A DNA stretch of 64,000 bases, from the NCBI GenBank assembly GCA_003712125.1, contig RHLF01000001.1:744001-808000 (forward strand), in the 5' to 3' direction. The notes under the pieces were generated by a model. It searched no databases. It was not told where the DNA came from and worked only from the letters and a program-made list of their open reading frames with translations. The translations under genes and the position numbers were made by a program. Below, piece by piece: positions 48,065 to 58,162 of this stretch; the stretch's first letter is position 1; every line of letters begins with the position of its first letter. Source of the DNA: Allomuricauda sp. GTDB taxonomy: Bacteria > Bacteroidota > Bacteroidia > Flavobacteriales > Flavobacteriaceae.

Positions 48065-49096
48065 TTACCGCTTATACTTTAGCACTTCAGACCGTCCCTT
48101 TTTGAAAATTTTATTGCTGGCGTGCTTTCCCTTGCGAAGCTTTTTTTGTTCTTGATAAGGAAGCGCAACGGTCTGCATACAAGCCTCTGAACAACATGAG
48201 TTCATTGTGGCAGCACATTCGTCGCATTGCAAAAACAATAGGTGGCAGGCCTCGTTAGCACAATTTACATGGGTGTCACAAGGTTTGCCACATTGATGGC
48301 AATTTGATATGACCTCATCTGAAATGCGCTCTCCACGCCTGTGGTCAAACACAAAATTTTTGCCCCTGAATTTATTTTTAAGATTTTGCTCCCTTACCTG
48401 GCGTGTGTATTCAATAATACCCCCTTCTAACTGGTAGACATTTTTGAATCCTTTGTGTTTATAGTATGCACTGGCCTTTTCACAACGTATGCCCCCGGTA
48501 CAATACATAACCAATTTTTTGTCTTCTTTATGTTCCGACAATTGTTCTTCAATAATGTCAAGCGAATCTCGAAAGGTATCAACATCAGGAGTAATGGCTT
48601 TTTCAAAATGCCCTATTTCACTTTCATAATGATTGCGCATATCAACCACTACTGCATTGGGATCATCAATTAGGTCGTTGAATTGTTCCGCATTTACATG
48701 AATCCCCTTATCCGTTACATCAAAAGAGGTGTCATTCAAACCATCAGCCACAATTTTGTCGCGAACCTTTACTTTAAGTTTTAGGAAAGACTTGTTGTCT
48801 TGTTGGATGGCAATATTCAACCGTACCCCATTCAAAAAGGAAATACTGTCAAGATGTGATTTGAATGCCTCAAATTTTTCAGCTGGAACAGAAAGCTGTG
48901 CATTCACCCCTTCATGGGCAACATAAATACGCCCAAGAACTTCCAATTCGTTCCAATTGATAAATAGGTGGTTTCTGAATATTCGTGTATTGCCAATGTG
49001 CGCATATTTGTAGAACGAGATGGTGAGACGATCTTGGCCTGCCTCTTCAATGAGCTGTTCCCGTTCTTTCGCACTTAACGTATTGTACAGTTGCAT
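48065..49096 (-). CDS. trhO: tRNA uridine(34) hydroxylase, rhodanese-like
   Basis: TrhO uses oxygen to convert U34 of certain tRNAs to 5-hydroxyuridine. The 343-residue protein has the N-terminal FYKYAHIGN...GRIYVAHEGVNAQLS region, the rhodanese domain (residues about 140-235) with active-site VMYCTGGIRCEKASAYY, and a cysteine-rich C terminus (CHQCGKPCDTHVNCANEAC then CDECAATMNSCCSEAC) of the kind that binds zinc. This is the normal YceA architecture. It lies alone on the minus strand, divergent from recA. Confidence 0.93.
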   Translation of the reverse strand: MQLYNTLSAKEREQLIEEAGQDRLTISFYKYAHIGNTRIFRNHLFINWNELEVLGRIYVAHEGVNAQLSVPAEKFEAFKSHLDSISFLNGVRLNIAIQQDNKSFLKLKVKVRDKIVADGLNDTSFDVTDKGIHVNAEQFNDLIDDPNAVVVDMRNHYESEIGHFEKAITPDVDTFRDSLDIIEEQLSEHKEDKKLVMYCTGGIRCEKASAYYKHKGFKNVYQLEGGIIEYTRQVREQNLKNKFRGKNFVFDHRRGERISDEVISNCHQCGKPCDTHVNCANEACHLLFLQCDECAATMNSCCSEACMQTVALPYQEQKKLRKGKHASNKIFKKGRSEVLKYKR

Positions 49097-49157
49097 GCTA
49101 TACCAATGTCTTAAGTTAAAAAGAATCTATTATTAAGCTCCGGCAAAAATACAGATA

Positions 49158-49186
49158 AAAAAAGCATCCGCTTGTGCGGATGCTTT
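49158..49186 (-). terminator. Minus-strand terminator in the trhO-recA divergent gap
   Basis: GCATCCGC, loop ttgt, GCGGATGC is a perfect 8-bp stem (49164-49183). On the minus strand it is followed by TTTTTTT. No annotated minus-strand gene lies upstream of it, so it seems to close an unannotated transcript starting between 49187 and 49376. Confidence 0.75.
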
Positions 49187-49327
49187 TCGACCACACATTT
49201 TCTTTTTCATACAGATTAAATCTCTTTGAATGCGGTCTTCCAATCCCCTATGACAAGAGGGATTGCATATATTTATTTGAATCAGTCGCTCTTTAGATGG
49301 TATGCTATCAAAAAGGTTGCGTCCGCG

Positions 49328-50384: not shown

Positions 50385-50473
50385 ACAAGGCCCATTATTT
50401 CATCGTTTTTCGGTGCACTTCCTTACGCAACCCTTGATTAACAAGACCATCTAGCTTTTACAGTAAAGGAATT

Positions 50474-50911
50474 ATGAAAAGGATAGTTCGTGTAATTTTT
50501 TGGGTTGTTTTTGTGCTATCAGTTCAAGGTTGTGCCATTGATAGTGAGCAAAACTTTCATTTTGTAACCCTGCGTATTGTAGATGCTGAAGTACCTGAAT
50601 CATTTGATTTAAACGGCGTGTATGACATTCAGGTTACCTATGCGAGACCCAATGGTTGCACCTTTTTTGAGGGTTTTGATGTTTTTCCGGTGGAAAATAC
50701 AATTCGAAATATTGTTGCCATTGGCTCTGAGTTTGATGATGGTGAAACCGCATGTACACAAGCGGTTGAAAACGTGGTGGCAGATTTTCGGTTCGAAGTA
50801 CTTTATGAAGGCACCTATACGTTCCGATTTTATAACGGCGATGATGCCGAAGGAAATCCAATTTATTTGGAGTATGACGTTCAGGTCAACGCGGTAGAAC
50901 CGACCAACTAA
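50474..50911 (+). CDS. Small lipoprotein of unknown function (145 aa)
   Basis: The product is a lipoprotein: signal peptide RIVRVIFWVVFVLSVQGC with the lipobox cysteine near residue 20. The mature part has a single Ig-like or beta-sandwich look (GVYDIQVTYARPNGCTFFEG, RFEVLYEGTYTFRFYNGDD) and two further cysteines (GCTFFEG and TACTQAV). I do not recognise a named family. It sits between recA and the ECF sigma factor, 31 bases before the latter, so it may belong to the same transcript. Confidence 0.8.
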   Translation: MKRIVRVIFWVVFVLSVQGCAIDSEQNFHFVTLRIVDAEVPESFDLNGVYDIQVTYARPNGCTFFEGFDVFPVENTIRNIVAIGSEFDDGETACTQAVENVVADFRFEVLYEGTYTFRFYNGDDAEGNPIYLEYDVQVNAVEPTN

Positions 50912-50942: not shown

Positions 50943-51473
50943 TTGACTCTTGAAGAGATCATAAACAATTGCAAAAAGGGAAAACGGGCAGCTCAAGAAG
51001 AACTGTATCGAAATTATTCGAGTGTTCTTTTTGGAATGTGCCTTAAGTACTCGCGCAATAAAACGGAGGCGGAAGACAATCTGCACGATAGTTTTATGAC
51101 GATTTTCAACAAGATAAGCCAATACAATTTTAAAGGTTCATTTGAGGGGTGGATGAAAAGGATAACAATAAATACCGTATTGCAAAAATATCGCAAGGAG
51201 CAATACTTAAATGTTGTTTCTGAAAATTACAGTGACATTTCCGCTGATGATGATATCCCAGAAGATATAAGCTTATCAACACTGTTGGGGCATATTCAAG
51301 AATTGCCCAACAAGTATCGAATGACATTCAATCTCTACGTTTTAGATGGCTATACCCATAAGGAGATTGGTGAAATGCTAGGGACAACCATAGGCACCTC
51401 AAAATCAAATTTGGCCCGGGCCAAAATGATTTTAAGACAAAAATTAGAAAAAGAAAATATAAACATTGCTTAA
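50943..51473 (+). CDS. ECF-type RNA polymerase sigma factor
   Basis: This 176-residue sigma-70 family member has region 2 (AAQEELYRNYSSVLFGMCLKYSRNKTEAEDNLHDSF and FEGWMKRITINTVLQKYRK) and region 4 (LPNKYRMTFNLYVLDGYTHKEIGEMLGTTIGTSKSNLARAKMILRQKL). It directs RNA polymerase to a set of promoters in response to envelope or surface signals. The start is a TTG: an in-frame stop lies 12 bases upstream and no ATG exists before residue 32, so a non-ATG start is needed. It is followed after 11 bases by the putative anti-sigma gene. Confidence 0.93.
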   Translation: MTLEEIINNCKKGKRAAQEELYRNYSSVLFGMCLKYSRNKTEAEDNLHDSFMTIFNKISQYNFKGSFEGWMKRITINTVLQKYRKEQYLNVVSENYSDISADDDIPEDISLSTLLGHIQELPNKYRMTFNLYVLDGYTHKEIGEMLGTTIGTSKSNLARAKMILRQKLEKENINIA

Positions 51474-51484
51474 CTCATTAAACA

Positions 51485-52951
51485 ATGGAAAAAAAGGATT
51501 TAGAACAACTCTTTAGGGACAAGTTCAAAGATTTTCAAGAAACACCCGATCCACGGGTTTGGAAATCAATTGAAACTTCGCTTGAAAAGAAGAAAAAGAA
51601 AAGAGTGGTCCCCATTTGGTGGAAAGTAGGTGGGGTGGCCGCGTTATTGGCTGTTCTGTTCTATGTGGTTAACCCCTTTGCGGGCGACACGGAGCTCGAC
51701 GGTATCAAAATCACAGAAACCGAACTTCAAAAAGGTATCAAGGAAAAAGGTGTACGTAAAGATGTTCAGAACCCTATCGAAGCCTCAGGTTCACAAGCCG
51801 ACACAAACGAATTGACCGATTCCAATTCGATTGAGCAAGGTGCTGAAGAGAAGGCAACTGTACCCCAAAAGCAAGACGCCTCTACCACACGAAATGCTGA
51901 CTATCAGTTTACCCAACAACAAGACGGACAATTAACTTCCAATGACGAAGTGCGGCAACCCGCAAGCACTCAAGAGGAAGAAGATGTGTTGGGTGTCAAT
52001 ACCCTACAGGATAGCGAAAAGGTCGTTGCTGCGGCAGTAGAAGAGCCAAAGGAGGCCATTGCCGAGAAAAAGGGATTTGAAGCTCTTAATCAAGGAGATT
52101 TCGAGTCCAAAGAGGAGGAAAACACAGTTGCTGGCACTGACAATATCTCGGACAAAAAATCAATTTTGGAGGCCATCAAAGAGCAAGAAGAAGAAGAAGA
52201 AACAGCAGTTGCCAAGAACTCGGGCAACAAATGGTCGGTTGCACCTGCTGTTGCACCCATCTATTTTAATGGTGTTGGTGAGGGTTCTCCTGTGCATTCC
52301 AACTTCAGTGCGAATTCGAAGTCGGGAAATGTGAATCTGAGCTATGGTGTGAATGTAGCCTATGAGTTGAATAATAAACTTTCTATACGCACGGGCCTAC
52401 ACCGCGTGAATTTCGGTTATGACACGAATGAAATTGTCTTCTCCTCGTCCTTAAATGCTTCGACCAACGAGGATATCGACAATATCAATTACAACGATAC
52501 CTCTAGAGGCTTGGTGATACAGAGTAAAGCGTCGCCTTCGCCGGCGGATGCCAACTCGACTGCTGATTTTGTGGCAAGATCACCCCAATTTGAAGGGCGC
52601 ATGGTTCAACAGATTGGTTATATGGAGGTTCCGCTGGAGCTAAACTATGCGTTGATTGACAAAAAATTTGGTGTAACCCTAATCGGAGGTATGAGTTCAT
52701 TGTTTTTAGTTGACAATGCTGTCTCCTTGGAGTCTGATGGCCTCGTTACTGAAATGGGTGAGGCGAATAATGTGAACGATATTAATTTCAGCACCAATGT
52801 TGGTGTGGGTCTCAATTATAAATTTTCGGACAAGATGCAAGCTAATATTGAGCCTGTTTTTAAATATCAACTGAATACTTTTTCGAATACAGCGGGCAAT
52901 TTCAGGCCGTTTTCAGTTGGTGTTTACAGTGGGCTTAGTTTTAAGTTTTAA
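51485..52951 (+). CDS. Putative anti-sigma factor with outer-membrane beta-barrel domain
   Basis: The 488-residue protein has three parts. Residues 1-42 are cytosolic and charged (LFRDKFKDFQETPDPRVWKSI), as in anti-sigma proteins of this phylum. Residues about 44-63 form one membrane helix (WWKVGGVAALLAVLFYVV). Residues about 65-250 are an acidic Gln/Glu/Asp-rich low-complexity linker, long enough to cross the periplasm. Residues about 255-488 are a beta-barrel-like domain (NLSYGVNVAYELNNKLSIRTG, GVGLNYKFSDKMQANIEP) ending in SGLSFKF with a terminal aromatic. This matches the dual membrane-spanning anti-sigma factors known from Bacteroides. It follows the ECF gene by 11 bases. The exact barrel fold is inference. 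Confidence 0.82.
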   Translation: MEKKDLEQLFRDKFKDFQETPDPRVWKSIETSLEKKKKKRVVPIWWKVGGVAALLAVLFYVVNPFAGDTELDGIKITETELQKGIKEKGVRKDVQNPIEASGSQADTNELTDSNSIEQGAEEKATVPQKQDASTTRNADYQFTQQQDGQLTSNDEVRQPASTQEEEDVLGVNTLQDSEKVVAAAVEEPKEAIAEKKGFEALNQGDFESKEEENTVAGTDNISDKKSILEAIKEQEEEEETAVAKNSGNKWSVAPAVAPIYFNGVGEGSPVHSNFSANSKSGNVNLSYGVNVAYELNNKLSIRTGLHRVNFGYDTNEIVFSSSLNASTNEDIDNINYNDTSRGLVIQSKASPSPADANSTADFVARSPQFEGRMVQQIGYMEVPLELNYALIDKKFGVTLIGGMSSLFLVDNAVSLESDGLVTEMGEANNVNDINFSTNVGVGLNYKFSDKMQANIEPVFKYQLNTFSNTAGNFRPFSVGVYSGLSFKF

Positions 52952-52988: not shown

Positions 52989-53020
52989 AACGCCCCACTT
53001 AATCGTGGGGCGTTTCTTTT
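52989..53020 (+). terminator. Terminator after the sigma/anti-sigma operon
   Basis: AACGCCCCAC (52989-52998), a six-base loop and GTGGGGCGTT (53005-53014) form a perfect 10-bp stem followed by TCTTTTT. The convergent plsC stop codon lies inside the loop. Confidence 0.9.
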
Positions 53021-55107: not shown

Positions 55108-55413
55108 ATGAAAAGTATAGGACAGACATTACGAGAATTACGAGAATCGAGAGGCTTATTATTGCGAGAAGTCGGTGCATCTTTATCAATTGACCCGACT
55201 CTTTTAAGCAAAATTGAACGCAATGACAGAATGCCAACAAAAGGGCAAGTTAATGCACTTTCGGAATTTTATGAAGACAAAAAGCATGAAGTCATAATTG
55301 CTTGGTTAAGTGATAAACTTGTTTATGAAATCCAAGACGAAGATTTGGCATTAACTGCTATGAAAGTTGCAGAACAAAAAATTGAACACTTAAAAACTTA
55401 TAAAGCTCAATGA
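55108..55413 (+). CDS. XRE-family controller (C) protein of an R-M system
   Basis: This 101-residue protein has an N-terminal XRE helix-turn-helix: GQTLRELRESRGLLLREVGASLSIDPTLLSKIERNDRMPT (in parts; residues about 5-45). C proteins usually activate or repress their own and the endonuclease gene to delay restriction after entry into a new host. It is the first gene of the cassette, overlaps the endonuclease gene by the ATGA arrangement, and has a perfect inverted repeat at its promoter. The C-terminal half (IIAWLSDKLVYEIQDEDLALTAM) is not a known C-protein extension I can name. An AT-rich, transferred gene. Confidence 0.87.
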   Translation: MKSIGQTLRELRESRGLLLREVGASLSIDPTLLSKIERNDRMPTKGQVNALSEFYEDKKHEVIIAWLSDKLVYEIQDEDLALTAMKVAEQKIEHLKTYKAQ

Positions 55414-56324
55414 ATATATCAAAAGATACAGCTAAGAATAAAGCAGAACTTCTTAAATACTTTAGGGACAGGGCAAGTGAATTTCTGGCTGAAGTAAATG
55501 GTGAATTTGGTAATACTGAATACAAAAAGAAAGCAAAAAAATTAAATACACTTCTTGTTAGAGCCAGAACTATTATAATTGAAATAATCGAGCAAAAAGG
55601 TAAAAAGGAAAACTGGACAAATAAAGAAATTCTTGAATGTGTTTTAATGGTTACTTACTGCAATTATGTTGTAATGCTTGAAGTTCGCAATTCGGTTTGG
55701 CCTTATGAATATATGACGTTCTCACGCAGGATTGGTGAATTATGGGAACCATTTTGCAAGTTAACTTTTGAATATCCAATAAATGATTTGGAGCTTTTTG
55801 TACCACCGTTATTTGCAGACGTTAAAAAGCAACTGGCTGATGAAATTGAAGAATATATAAACGGTCTTAAACTAACTGATGAAGAAAAAGGGCAACTAAT
55901 TAAATATTACAACAAAGTTTGGAGCTTGGTAATGTCTGGTGAAATACAACTTGAACTTGACTTACATTTCATTTTTGAAGGCAAAAAACATGTTGTCGAT
56001 TTCAAAAGTGGTTTTGGGTCAAATGAAAAAGGAAATACAAACAGACTGTTATTGGTAGCAAGTATCTATCATAATCTCGAAGATAATTATGAACCTTTAA
56101 TTTTTGTGAGAGCTTCTGAAAATAACAACTACTTCAACACTTTAAAAAACTCAGGTATCTGGAGCGCTTATTCAGGTACAGAAACTTATGATGAACTTCA
56201 TAAATATTCTGGCTTTGATATTCGCACGTGGATAACACAAAATATTAATTGGACAGAAGATTTAGATGACGCTTTTGTTCAGCATATTGAAGCCAATGAC
56301 CTCACTCAATATTTAACTTGGTAA
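55410..56324 (+). CDS. Predicted type II restriction endonuclease (PD-(D/E)xK-like)
   Basis: This 304-residue protein has no name I can assign. Residues 182-199 show a nuclease-like metal site, E182-L-D184 in LELDLHF and D197-F-K199 in VVDFKSGF, which is a D-X12-D-x-K arrangement (PD-(D/E)xK type). The first 150 residues are alpha-helical (DRASEFLAEVNGEFG, SRRIGELWEPFCKL). It starts by overlapping the controller stop (ATGA) and is followed after 1 base by the methyltransferase, so the trio is one unit. Position and the nuclease motif make it the restriction partner; recognition sequence is unknown. Confidence 0.8.
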   Translation: MNISKDTAKNKAELLKYFRDRASEFLAEVNGEFGNTEYKKKAKKLNTLLVRARTIIIEIIEQKGKKENWTNKEILECVLMVTYCNYVVMLEVRNSVWPYEYMTFSRRIGELWEPFCKLTFEYPINDLELFVPPLFADVKKQLADEIEEYINGLKLTDEEKGQLIKYYNKVWSLVMSGEIQLELDLHFIFEGKKHVVDFKSGFGSNEKGNTNRLLLVASIYHNLEDNYEPLIFVRASENNNYFNTLKNSGIWSAYSGTETYDELHKYSGFDIRTWITQNINWTEDLDDAFVQHIEANDLTQYLTW

Positions 56325-56325
56325 T

Positions 56326-57828
56326 ATGATAAGTGAACAGAGAATATTTCAGGCATATTATACAAAATCAGAACCGATTGTAACTTATATGGTCGACTTA
56401 TTAGAACTTAAAGGTTCTGAATTTATTTTTGAACCGTGTGCTGGTGACGGAGTTTTTTTAGACCCAATTTTAGACAAACACCAAGAAGTAAAAGTTGATG
56501 CTTTTGAGCTCAATCCAGTTGCTTATAATAAAATTAAAAACAAATATTCAGATTTAGATAATGTTACTGTAAAACAAACAGATACATTAACAGATTTAGA
56601 TTTAGAGTTATTGTGTTCTATGGGTGGTAAATATGACGCAGTTATAGCCAACCCACCTTATGGAGCTTGGCGAAACACAGAAGATAGAGCGTCTCTTAAA
56701 CGGAGATTTAATGGTTTTTATGCAAAAGAAAGTTACTCTTTGTTTTTATACAGAAGTATTGAATCTTTGAAAGAAGGCGGTAAACTTGTTTTCATTATAC
56801 CAGACACCTATTTAAACCTGAATATGCATAAGGATATCCGAAAATACATCCTTACAAAAACCCAAATAAAGGAAATTTCATTATTTCCATCTTCATATTT
56901 TCCAGGTGTCAATTTTGGTTATGCAAACTTATCCATTATAGCATTAGAAAAATCGAGCAACCTTTCTTTAAACCTAAAGAATTCGTTCAACATTTTTAAG
57001 GATTTTAGATCGGTTGATGAACTCGGAAAAAATAAATTACCACATCTAACAAAATTGAAATTCAAACAGAAAGATGTTTTGAGTAATGCAGGTCATATTT
57101 TCCTGACAAGTAAAAATCAACAGGTTTCAGATACAATTAGAAATGCGAAAATTACTATTGGAGACATTTGTGATTGTGCTACTGGTTTTTATTCTGGGAA
57201 TGACAAAGAAAGGTTAAAGGTCTTGAATAAGTCAATTAGAAACTCGAAAAGATATATTGAAGTTGATAAGAATAAAATCACTTATGATTGTAGTTCTAGA
57301 CCATTAGACGGGATTGAAACCGAAAAGATATTTGTTCCAATTGTTAAGGGTGGCAATGTAAAGTATTTTAAAGCTGATAATTGGTTTATGAAATGGTCCA
57401 AAGAGATTGTAGACTTCTACAAAAAGGATAAAAAAGCTCGTTATCAGAATTCTTCTTACTATTTCCGAAAAGGTATTGCTGTTCCAATGGTTAGTTCAAG
57501 TTCAATAACAGGTGCAATATTAGAAAACAGATTATTTGACCAGTCAATTGTTGGTATATTTCCTAAAAATGAAGAATTGCTTCACTATTTGCTAGCATTT
57601 TTCAACTCACCAACTTGTAATAAATTAATTAGGACAATTAATCCTTCAACAAATAATTCTTCAAATTATATTAAAAAGATACCATTTATTAAACCTCAAT
57701 CAAAACAAAAGGCATTAATAACCGAAAACATAAAACTAATAATCGAACAAGTTAAACTTTCAGGTGATTATGATTTGGAACTTGAAAATACAAACAACAA
57801 ACTGATAAATAAACTCTACGGATTTTAA
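56326..57828 (+). CDS. N6-adenine DNA methyltransferase, gamma type
   Basis: This 500-residue methyltransferase protects host DNA by methylating adenine. Motif X-like YYT (residues 11-13), motif I FEPCAGDG (35-42) for S-adenosylmethionine, and motif IV NPPY (109-112) occur in gamma-class order. A C-terminal target-recognition region (about residues 260-480) follows, including the hallmark SPTCNKLIRTINPSTNNSSNY. Size is close to M.PstI/M.BsuBI-type enzymes (~500 aa), but I cannot state the recognised sequence. The stop TAA lies exactly at the junction with dprA. It is AT-rich like the rest of the cassette. Confidence 0.92.
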   Translation: MISEQRIFQAYYTKSEPIVTYMVDLLELKGSEFIFEPCAGDGVFLDPILDKHQEVKVDAFELNPVAYNKIKNKYSDLDNVTVKQTDTLTDLDLELLCSMGGKYDAVIANPPYGAWRNTEDRASLKRRFNGFYAKESYSLFLYRSIESLKEGGKLVFIIPDTYLNLNMHKDIRKYILTKTQIKEISLFPSSYFPGVNFGYANLSIIALEKSSNLSLNLKNSFNIFKDFRSVDELGKNKLPHLTKLKFKQKDVLSNAGHIFLTSKNQQVSDTIRNAKITIGDICDCATGFYSGNDKERLKVLNKSIRNSKRYIEVDKNKITYDCSSRPLDGIETEKIFVPIVKGGNVKYFKADNWFMKWSKEIVDFYKKDKKARYQNSSYYFRKGIAVPMVSSSSITGAILENRLFDQSIVGIFPKNEELLHYLLAFFNSPTCNKLIRTINPSTNNSSNYIKKIPFIKPQSKQKALITENIKLIIEQVKLSGDYDLELENTNNKLINKLYGF

Positions 57829-57833
57829 CCAAA
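57826..57833. repeat. TAACCAAA, right copy
   Basis: The right copy of the 8-base direct repeat; its TAA is the methyltransferase stop and the rest is the first dprA sequence on that side. Confidence 0.4.
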
Positions 57834-58162
57834 GCGATGTTTCCTTTTTTGAATAGCAGCACTGGTGCATCGATGCAGTGCTTCAGATAGTGGGGATAGT
57901 CTGCATCCCAAAAACAACTGACTCCTATTTCATTGCTCTTGATAAACTCAAATTCTCGTTCGGCAGCCAATCTATGTTTCCTGTCATGAAGACCTTTAAG
58001 GGTTGCTTTCCCAATTCCTTCCAACTTGAGAAGATGGTGCGGTTTATCCTCAAAAATTGCCGTTGGACTGCCACAGGATGCAATTAATTTTTTGGCAGTC
58101 ACATCCCCAATATTCGGAACCCGCAGCAAGCGAAGCAGGGCAATAATTTCGTTTTCAGACAT
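57829..58162 (-). pseudogene. dprA: dprA, N-terminal remnant
   Basis: DprA loads RecA on single-stranded DNA taken up in natural transformation. The first ~111 codons are intact from ATG 58162: LRLLRVPNIGDVTAKKLIAS, KLEGIGKATLKGLHDRKHRL (helix-hairpin-helix domain), SCFWDADYPHYLKHCIDAPVLLFKKGNIAL. Homology ends at that leucine, at the methyltransferase stop. The frame runs on for 25 non-homologous codons (VKIRRVYLSVC...) to about 57752 within the methyltransferase. The Rossmann fold should follow (SIVGTR and the conserved GLA/GID motifs) but is absent. Confidence 0.93.

Follow-up and report, generated by a model that had tools for sequence, protein, structure and literature searches.

In Escherichia coli, outer-membrane stress acts on the ECF sigma factor sigmaE, whose core targets include envelope factors and small RNAs. 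Its partner RseA does not reach the outer membrane, and the separate proteins DegS and RseB are the sensors. The FecI/FecR system also connects an ECF sigma factor and an inner-membrane anti-sigma factor with input from the outer membrane; FecR contains a FecR domain and is accompanied by a separate TonB-dependent receptor. A pair known from Bacteroides fragilis carries the name EcfO/Reo.

The closest described systems are Dma1/Das1 and Dma2/Das2 of Bacteroides thetaiotaomicron. In the available portion of the source, Dma proteins are defined as having an N-terminal anti-sigma domain (the head), followed by one membrane helix, a long disordered tether, and a barrel at the C-terminus, with the gene of an ECF21 sigma factor next to them. 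Deletion is expected to raise the regulon and vesiculation, and the effect of a Dma2 deletion is reported to require Das2 (PMC13088901). The Phocaeicola vulgatus pair M0N98_03760-61 has the same architecture, including a predicted periplasm-spanning anti-sigma factor with an outer-membrane barrel; excerpts of its report describe its induction when a toxin that targets the lipid A-core damages the envelope, along with signs of envelope stress (PMC9308784). That report also mentions NigD orthologues and a longer O-antigen, and this pair is compared here by description only. The same excerpts describe EcfO/Reo as a similar sigma/anti-sigma pair (PMC9308784). It differs in its link to oxidative stress. 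The literature found on trans-envelope anti-sigma factors concerns gut Bacteroides and Phocaeicola, and the design is now recognized in a second major branch.

The DNA analyzed here, referred to as the window, is a stretch of 64,000 nucleotides from Allomuricauda sp. in the family Flavobacteriaceae (GCA_003712125.1, contig RHLF01000001.1, positions 744,001 to 808,000). All coordinates below are positions in the window unless another contig is given.

The sigma/anti-sigma cassette

Two open reading frames 11 bp apart encode the pair. The first (50943-51473, + strand) starts with TTG and encodes an ECF sigma factor of 176 residues, in which Sigma70_r2 and Sigma70_r4_2 are above the Pfam cut-offs. 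The second (51485-52951, +) encodes a protein of 488 residues, recognized as a Dma-type trans-envelope anti-sigma factor through Pfam, its homologues, an AlphaFold2 model, Foldseek, and hhalign. They are preceded by a gene for a 145-residue lipoprotein (50474-50911, +) with the lipobox cysteine Cys20 and a predicted Ig-like beta-sandwich (mean pLDDT of the AlphaFold2 model, 91.2), and a hairpin followed by a T-rich run at 52989-53014 (+) is the likely terminator by sequence and fold. As judged from this layout, the lipoprotein, sigma, and anti-sigma genes constitute an operon. The preliminary description of this locus, made from the sequence alone, rightly recognized the sigma and anti-sigma genes but overlooked the upstream lipoprotein gene and the regulon promoter in front of it.

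Homologues of the anti-sigma protein were found in 44 of 79 related genomes, including 41 of 48 within the same family, Flavobacteriaceae. In each of the 30 loci read, the sigma gene immediately precedes the anti-sigma gene at a gap of -4 to 58 bp; thus, the pairing is not due to chance. A homologue of the lipoprotein gene lies upstream of the sigma gene in 23 of these 30 loci, and in one more the gene is truncated where the locus ends. The order in the closest loci is recA, lipoprotein, sigma, anti-sigma, and acyltransferase, with recA and the acyltransferase named by eye. The start codon of the sigma gene is never ATG among the 30 homologues (L015-L044): by our own reading, 7 are GTG and 23 are TTG, the latter including three otherwise unclassified cases that begin with Leu. 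It is as if translation were kept low.

The preliminary description proposed a short anti-sigma head, one inner-membrane helix, an acidic linker of ~185 residues, and a C-terminal barrel-like domain for the 488-residue protein, and Pfam, AlphaFold2, and Foldseek agree with this anatomy. The AlphaFold2 model was built from an alignment of 30 sequences (mean pLDDT 65.9, pTM 0.51). The head, residues 1-42 (51485-51610, +), contains two helices at residues 4-13 and 23-37, predicted with modest confidence (pLDDT about 59-76), and an invariant Trp26. The stretch KKKKKR precedes a hydrophobic helix at residues 44-62 (51614-51670, +), which is present in the model and is predicted to insert in the inner membrane. 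The acidic periplasmic tether, residues 65-248 (51677-52228, +), has 184 residues, of which 24% are D or E, and a net charge of -25; it is mostly disordered in the model, with pLDDT below 50 at residues 65-223 and a helix at 227-244. Among the 30 homologues the tether is 159-223 residues long, and its net charge is negative in 29.

Residues 250-488 (52232-52948, +) are predicted to form an 8-stranded OmpA/NspA-like beta-barrel ending with a C-terminal Phe, rather than a soluble periplasmic fold. The strands, from residue 250 to 487, are long and mostly show pLDDT above 90, except for the loop region near 321-370. The Pfam family OMP_b-brl_2 matches residues 275-446 with 29.2 bits (cut-off 27) and is matched by 23 of the 30 homologues, while OMP_b-brl is matched by 28 of them at E ≤ 0.1. 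The best Foldseek rows include the 8-stranded outer-membrane barrels OmpA, NspA, Ail, and OmpW, with TM-scores by target of 0.58-0.69; the value against a full-length OmpA model is 0.34, and larger OmpT-type barrels are likewise among the top rows. The sequence search of solved structures returned one weak, unrelated row (E 0.9). Neither Pfam nor NCBIfam gives the protein a FecR-family match at E ≤ 1, and it carries its own barrel, in contrast to the FecI/FecR system. It is predicted, mainly through the structure model, to bridge the cytosol and the outer membrane as one chain, which would be inserted in two membranes.

For the comparison with Bacteroides, NigD_C was found in 5 of 296 genomes of a phylum-wide sample, and six NigD loci were read in two of these genomes. 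Sigma/anti-sigma pairs are present beside NigD in two of the six loci. One of the genomes is that of Bacteroides ihuae, and a relative of its anti-sigma protein occurs in 40 of 41 genomes of the genus, from which 20 loci were aligned. The comparison thus covers B. ihuae and other members of its genus, and the Dma sequences of B. thetaiotaomicron itself are not among them. Whole-protein profiles of the flavobacterial and Bacteroides anti-sigma proteins match through the barrel with an E-value of 2e-13. The head alone scores 29.0 with hhalign against the heads of the 20 Bacteroides sigma-linked anti-sigma proteins (best of 100 column shuffles, 18.9), and the barrel alone scores 48.1 (best of 50 shuffles, 24.8). 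The head core common to both is FKDFQETPDPRVWKSIETSL in the flavobacterial proteins and LKDYSEPYPPDGWQRLEKEL in Bacteroides. The profile of the flavobacterial sigma factors matches the sigma factors beside the Bacteroides Dma-type proteins with an E-value of 6.7e-44, with the caveat that ECF sigma factors all resemble each other.

Since the head, the barrel, and the sigma factor are homologous to those of the Bacteroides trans-envelope pairs, the 488-residue protein is, on the grounds of homology, a flavobacterial Dma. The head, helix, tether, barrel, and adjacent sigma gene of the Dma definition are all present, and by this homology the head would bind the sigma factor. The parallel to Bacteroides drawn in the preliminary description is therefore supported. 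For the Dma1-subtype feature, a NigD-family lipoprotein as output, this genome gives no match by sequence.

The cassette promoter in related genomes

An ECF-type promoter, ACGCAACC-N15-CATCTA, is located at 50425-50453 (+) as an exact match, 20 bp before the start codon of the lipoprotein gene. A shorter form of it has two matches in the window against 0.03 expected by chance. The first scan of the cassette loci with GCAAC...CATCT matched 22 of 30, and the spacing was 16 in all 22 where 15-21 was allowed. The exact form or a close form, defined as [AG]CGCAAC[CT] plus [CT]ATCT, occurs exactly once in each of the 27 loci that extend far enough upstream; the other three are too short there. The distance from the promoter to the sigma gene is 455-557 bp where the lipoprotein gene is present, versus 80-178 bp in six loci in which no such gene was found. 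Thus, its position follows whichever gene opens the operon.

A search of 78 related genomes with the exact 14-base form gave 79 sites in 31 genomes, against 1 site for the reversed pattern. The exact form tracks the anti-sigma gene: it is present in 31 of 44 genomes with an anti-sigma homologue and in none of the 34 without (Fisher p 1.3e-11), and within the family in 31 of 41 versus 0 of 7 (p 2.6e-4). The remaining 13 of the 44 genomes with a homologue lack the exact form.

The upstream regions differ between the two lineages. In the Bacteroides loci (L110-L129), the NigD gene is divergent to the sigma/anti-sigma genes in 14 of 20, some of the others being cut by locus ends, whereas the flavobacterial cassette begins with a lipoprotein that has no sequence similarity to NigD. 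The element TGCARTATTT is conserved before the sigma gene in 17 of the 20 Bacteroides loci and a mirrored element is seen in 14; both occur in 12, then mostly 56-57 bp apart. ACGCAACC-N15-CATCTA was not seen by eye upstream of the sigma gene in any of these 20 loci, and a promoter shared with Bacteroides was rejected.

One other flavobacterial ECF motif was found described, namely SM6 of Flavobacterium psychrophilum. According to the accessible part of its report, it has a CGT -10 box and its targets include T9SS genes, a YceA/rhodanese gene, and an ECF sigma/anti-sigma pair (PMC9723704). This -10 box differs from CATCTA, and the pair is known here by description only. No report of the ACGCAACC-N15-CATCTA promoter or its regulon was found in the open-access literature searched, which excludes the founding Dma paper (10.1073/pnas.2321910121) and the EcfO paper; the founding paper could list flavobacterial members. 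What is new is a cassette usually headed by a gene for a beta-sandwich lipoprotein, the conserved ECF promoter before it, and a regulon of lipoproteins and micropeptides. Such a precise consensus enables target prediction genome by genome.

Predicted targets and the transcript beside recA

Sorted by position, the 79 exact sites comprise 21 at the cassette, 16 close to the cassette but pointing away from it (the recA-flank class, including that of the window), and 42 others. All 42 other sites and 15 recA-flank sites were fetched for reading. Thirty of the 42 lead into lipoprotein genes. The median distance from the -10 box to the start codon is 22 bp, taken over 31 sites as the classifier also counts the 36-residue peptide of L228. 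As background, this classifier picks out 9 of 61 ORFs in the window, a count that covers the cassette lipoprotein as well as some false calls. In other loci it picks out 26 of 179 ORFs, and many of these are cassette lipoproteins. Compared to 15%, the proportion of 30 in 42 is a clear excess (p 3e-16). As judged from these positions, lipoprotein genes are frequent predicted targets of the promoter in the relatives.

Seven of the 42 sites (L195, L199, L207, L219, L228, L229, and L234) lead into single-helix micropeptides of 28-36 residues, such as MKIILIMSLLIIFNIILLVFSVNKRTDP; six were recognized by script and that of L228 by eye. Two others precede proteins with a signal-like start (L223 and L225), two lead into genes named by eye as TonB-receptor-like at 111 bp (L226) and 141 bp (L222), and one is unclassified (L210). 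The regulon lipoproteins, with L228 left out, fall into 12 sequence groups. Domain matches above the cut-off in some of the 20 lipoproteins scanned are Lactonase, LVIVD repeats, Recep_L_domain, VWA_4, DUF6970, and DUF6252. Many of the regulon lipoproteins start with C-S-N-D-D-like residues. Signals for surface export are given as SDDDD for B. fragilis and SDDFE for F. johnsoniae in the part of the source available (PMC5080379), and based on this resemblance the regulon lipoproteins are likely to be displayed on the cell surface.

In the Allomuricauda genome, exact sites are found only at the cassette and in the recA flank. A third site with a spacing one base shorter is located at C2:301727-301752 (L134), 35 bp before the micropeptide MDIFLGIITLLLLVNALILLISFDRQKNKG. 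A similar ORF, peptidylprolyl-isomerase-like by eye, is present in the flank of this site and in L229, where the site is exact and the peptide is likewise similar. Each of three relatives from the same genus has one exact site. With two exact sites and one shorter-gap site here, and one each in the same-genus relatives, the broad lipoprotein regulon is shown in other relatives rather than in this genome, where few sites are visible. A single-mismatch site, the only one in this genome, lies 209 bp before a SusD-like lipoprotein gene (named by eye), and may be due to chance. The 11 two-mismatch sites were rejected as background: no lipoprotein gene is found among the 8 with an ORF in reach, and the search gave 14 matches in all, versus 14 for the reversed control.

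The second exact site of the window (49294-49322, - strand) is across recA and reads away from the cassette; recA was read between cassette and site only in the window and in a small number of close loci. An intrinsic terminator with a 12-bp stem and a T-run (49157-49187, -) is predicted to end a short transcript before trhO. By position, an exact site of this class is present in 16 of 78 genomes, the window's included, and trhO is downstream in 14 of the 15 fetched relatives. In 11 of these 15 (L180-L194), the transcript would contain an ORF of 28-30 residues, MKFFKKTI..ALGVSVA..NSNCKADGG. Ten of these were aligned, and a count over ten sequences gives a third-position excess (558 versus 319 and 258). 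The peptide ends with CKADGG or similar, and an inverted repeat then lies over or near the stop codon. Inverted repeats are found in all 11, the longest of L189 being elsewhere, but a consensus hairpin was set aside, its energy being only -0.19 versus 0.0 in 100 shuffles of the columns. An ORF of this kind was not seen in the transcript of the window (49157-49322, -), and Rfam gave no match to this transcript at gathering scores.

The gene trhO itself (48065-49096, named by eye) was considered as the target of the second promoter and is unlikely to be so, since the terminator lies between them in the window; terminator-like hairpins were also seen by eye before trhO in the relatives read. A TAnnTTTG-like box precedes trhO, by eye only. 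The YceA/rhodanese gene of F. psychrophilum is listed behind the SM6 promoter in the portion of the report at hand (PMC9723704), which makes read-through, or another ECF promoter, possible for trhO.

Proposed mechanism and alternative readings

The cassette is best interpreted, with a probability of about 0.8, as a Dma-type switch that responds to outer-membrane stress and regulates its own expression. In this model, the head of the 488-residue protein would keep the ECF sigma factor bound at the inner membrane, while the tether would span the periplasm and connect to the 8-stranded outer-membrane barrel. If this barrel misfolds, is displaced, or meets a ligand, the head would be removed, most probably through proteolytic cleavage at the inner membrane, and the sigma factor, once free, would initiate transcription at ACGCAACC-N15-CATCTA. 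By analogy with the described systems, sequestration with proteolytic release is likely. The output would be its own lipoprotein-sigma-anti-sigma operon, the short transcript beside recA, and single-helix micropeptides; many relatives would add a set of small lipoproteins whose N-termini resemble surface-export signals. The cell may thereby read the state of its outer membrane directly and respond to it, and a role in vesicle formation, if any, would be an extension from Bacteroides.

The promoter could be shared by another ECF sigma factor, as ECF promoters can overlap and the genome contains 25 matches to sigma70 region 2. That the motif belongs to a different sigma factor, with the cassette as only one of its targets, is nevertheless improbable given its absence from every genome without an anti-sigma homologue and its presence, in exact or close form, before every cassette with sufficient upstream DNA. 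Hardly more probable is a protein cut during export, with the helix acting as a signal sequence or the tether constitutively cleaved, so that head and barrel act apart and no bridging molecule exists. The tether is long, disordered, and poorly conserved, and cleavage there would be tolerated; however, a signal peptide would not usually have as many as 42 residues of charged head ahead of its helix, no conserved small-x-small motif follows the helix by eye in the 30 homologues, and head and barrel are one chain in 30 of 30, both homologous to the Bacteroides protein.

The nature of the signal leaves more room. The barrel might sense a surface ligand (glycan, LPS, or peptide), as proposed for Dma2, rather than general folding or envelope stress, and this is a real possibility, although it falls short of being the expected one. 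The predicted outward loops near residues 265-278 and 418-432 hold the invariant or nearly invariant residues G267, S268, F274, N277, G425, A427, and N429, while the long loop 322-368 has no such residues, and the authors of the Dma2 study hypothesize a glycan signal in the part of the paper available (PMC13088901). On the other side, no ligand is known, the placement of the loops comes from the model, and in the excerpts on the P. vulgatus pair the response is to envelope damage (PMC9308784). It is doubtful that the upstream lipoprotein corresponds, in flavobacteria, to the lipoprotein NigD, which Dma1-dependent vesiculation requires. Its position is related to that of the mostly divergent NigD gene in Bacteroides, and in a second look at the structure with VIA the NigD-like chains 3k0y and 3qwn appeared at Z 6.3 among many Ig-like rows, where Z below 8 may mean only a common fold. 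Sequence comparison argues against it: a first profile match (E 4e-6) apparently came from the signal peptides, and the mature parts alone scored 15.7, inside the range of 50 column shuffles (best 20.0), with a probability of 0.5%. NigD_C has no match in this genome or, with Pfam, in the 23 lipoprotein homologues scanned, and Foldseek returned no match below E 0.03 for the lipoprotein model.

The Dma-type stress switch, in its most extended form, would be a one-polypeptide sensor of Flavobacteriaceae that uses its own barrel to test how well outer-membrane assembly works. A barrel that could not be folded or held in place would free the sigma factor onto a regulon defined by destination, namely small surface lipoproteins, single-helix micropeptides, and a short RNA or peptide transcript beside recA, as a Bacteroidota counterpart of the sigmaE response built from unrelated parts. 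This extension is tentative, and rather less than probable as a whole. The predicted targets in the relatives, mainly lipoproteins and micropeptides, provide ready reporters and gene sets for tests of the sensor.

Elsewhere in the genome, a frame of 245 residues (C1:219481-219900) encodes another protein with this type of head, adjoining another sigma factor match at C1:220202-220402. In the window, positions 55108-58162 appear by eye to be a restriction-modification-like island, consisting of an HTH regulator, a 304-residue protein, and a 500-residue DNA methylase, and a short, perhaps truncated, DprA-like ORF, also recognized by eye, adjoins it.
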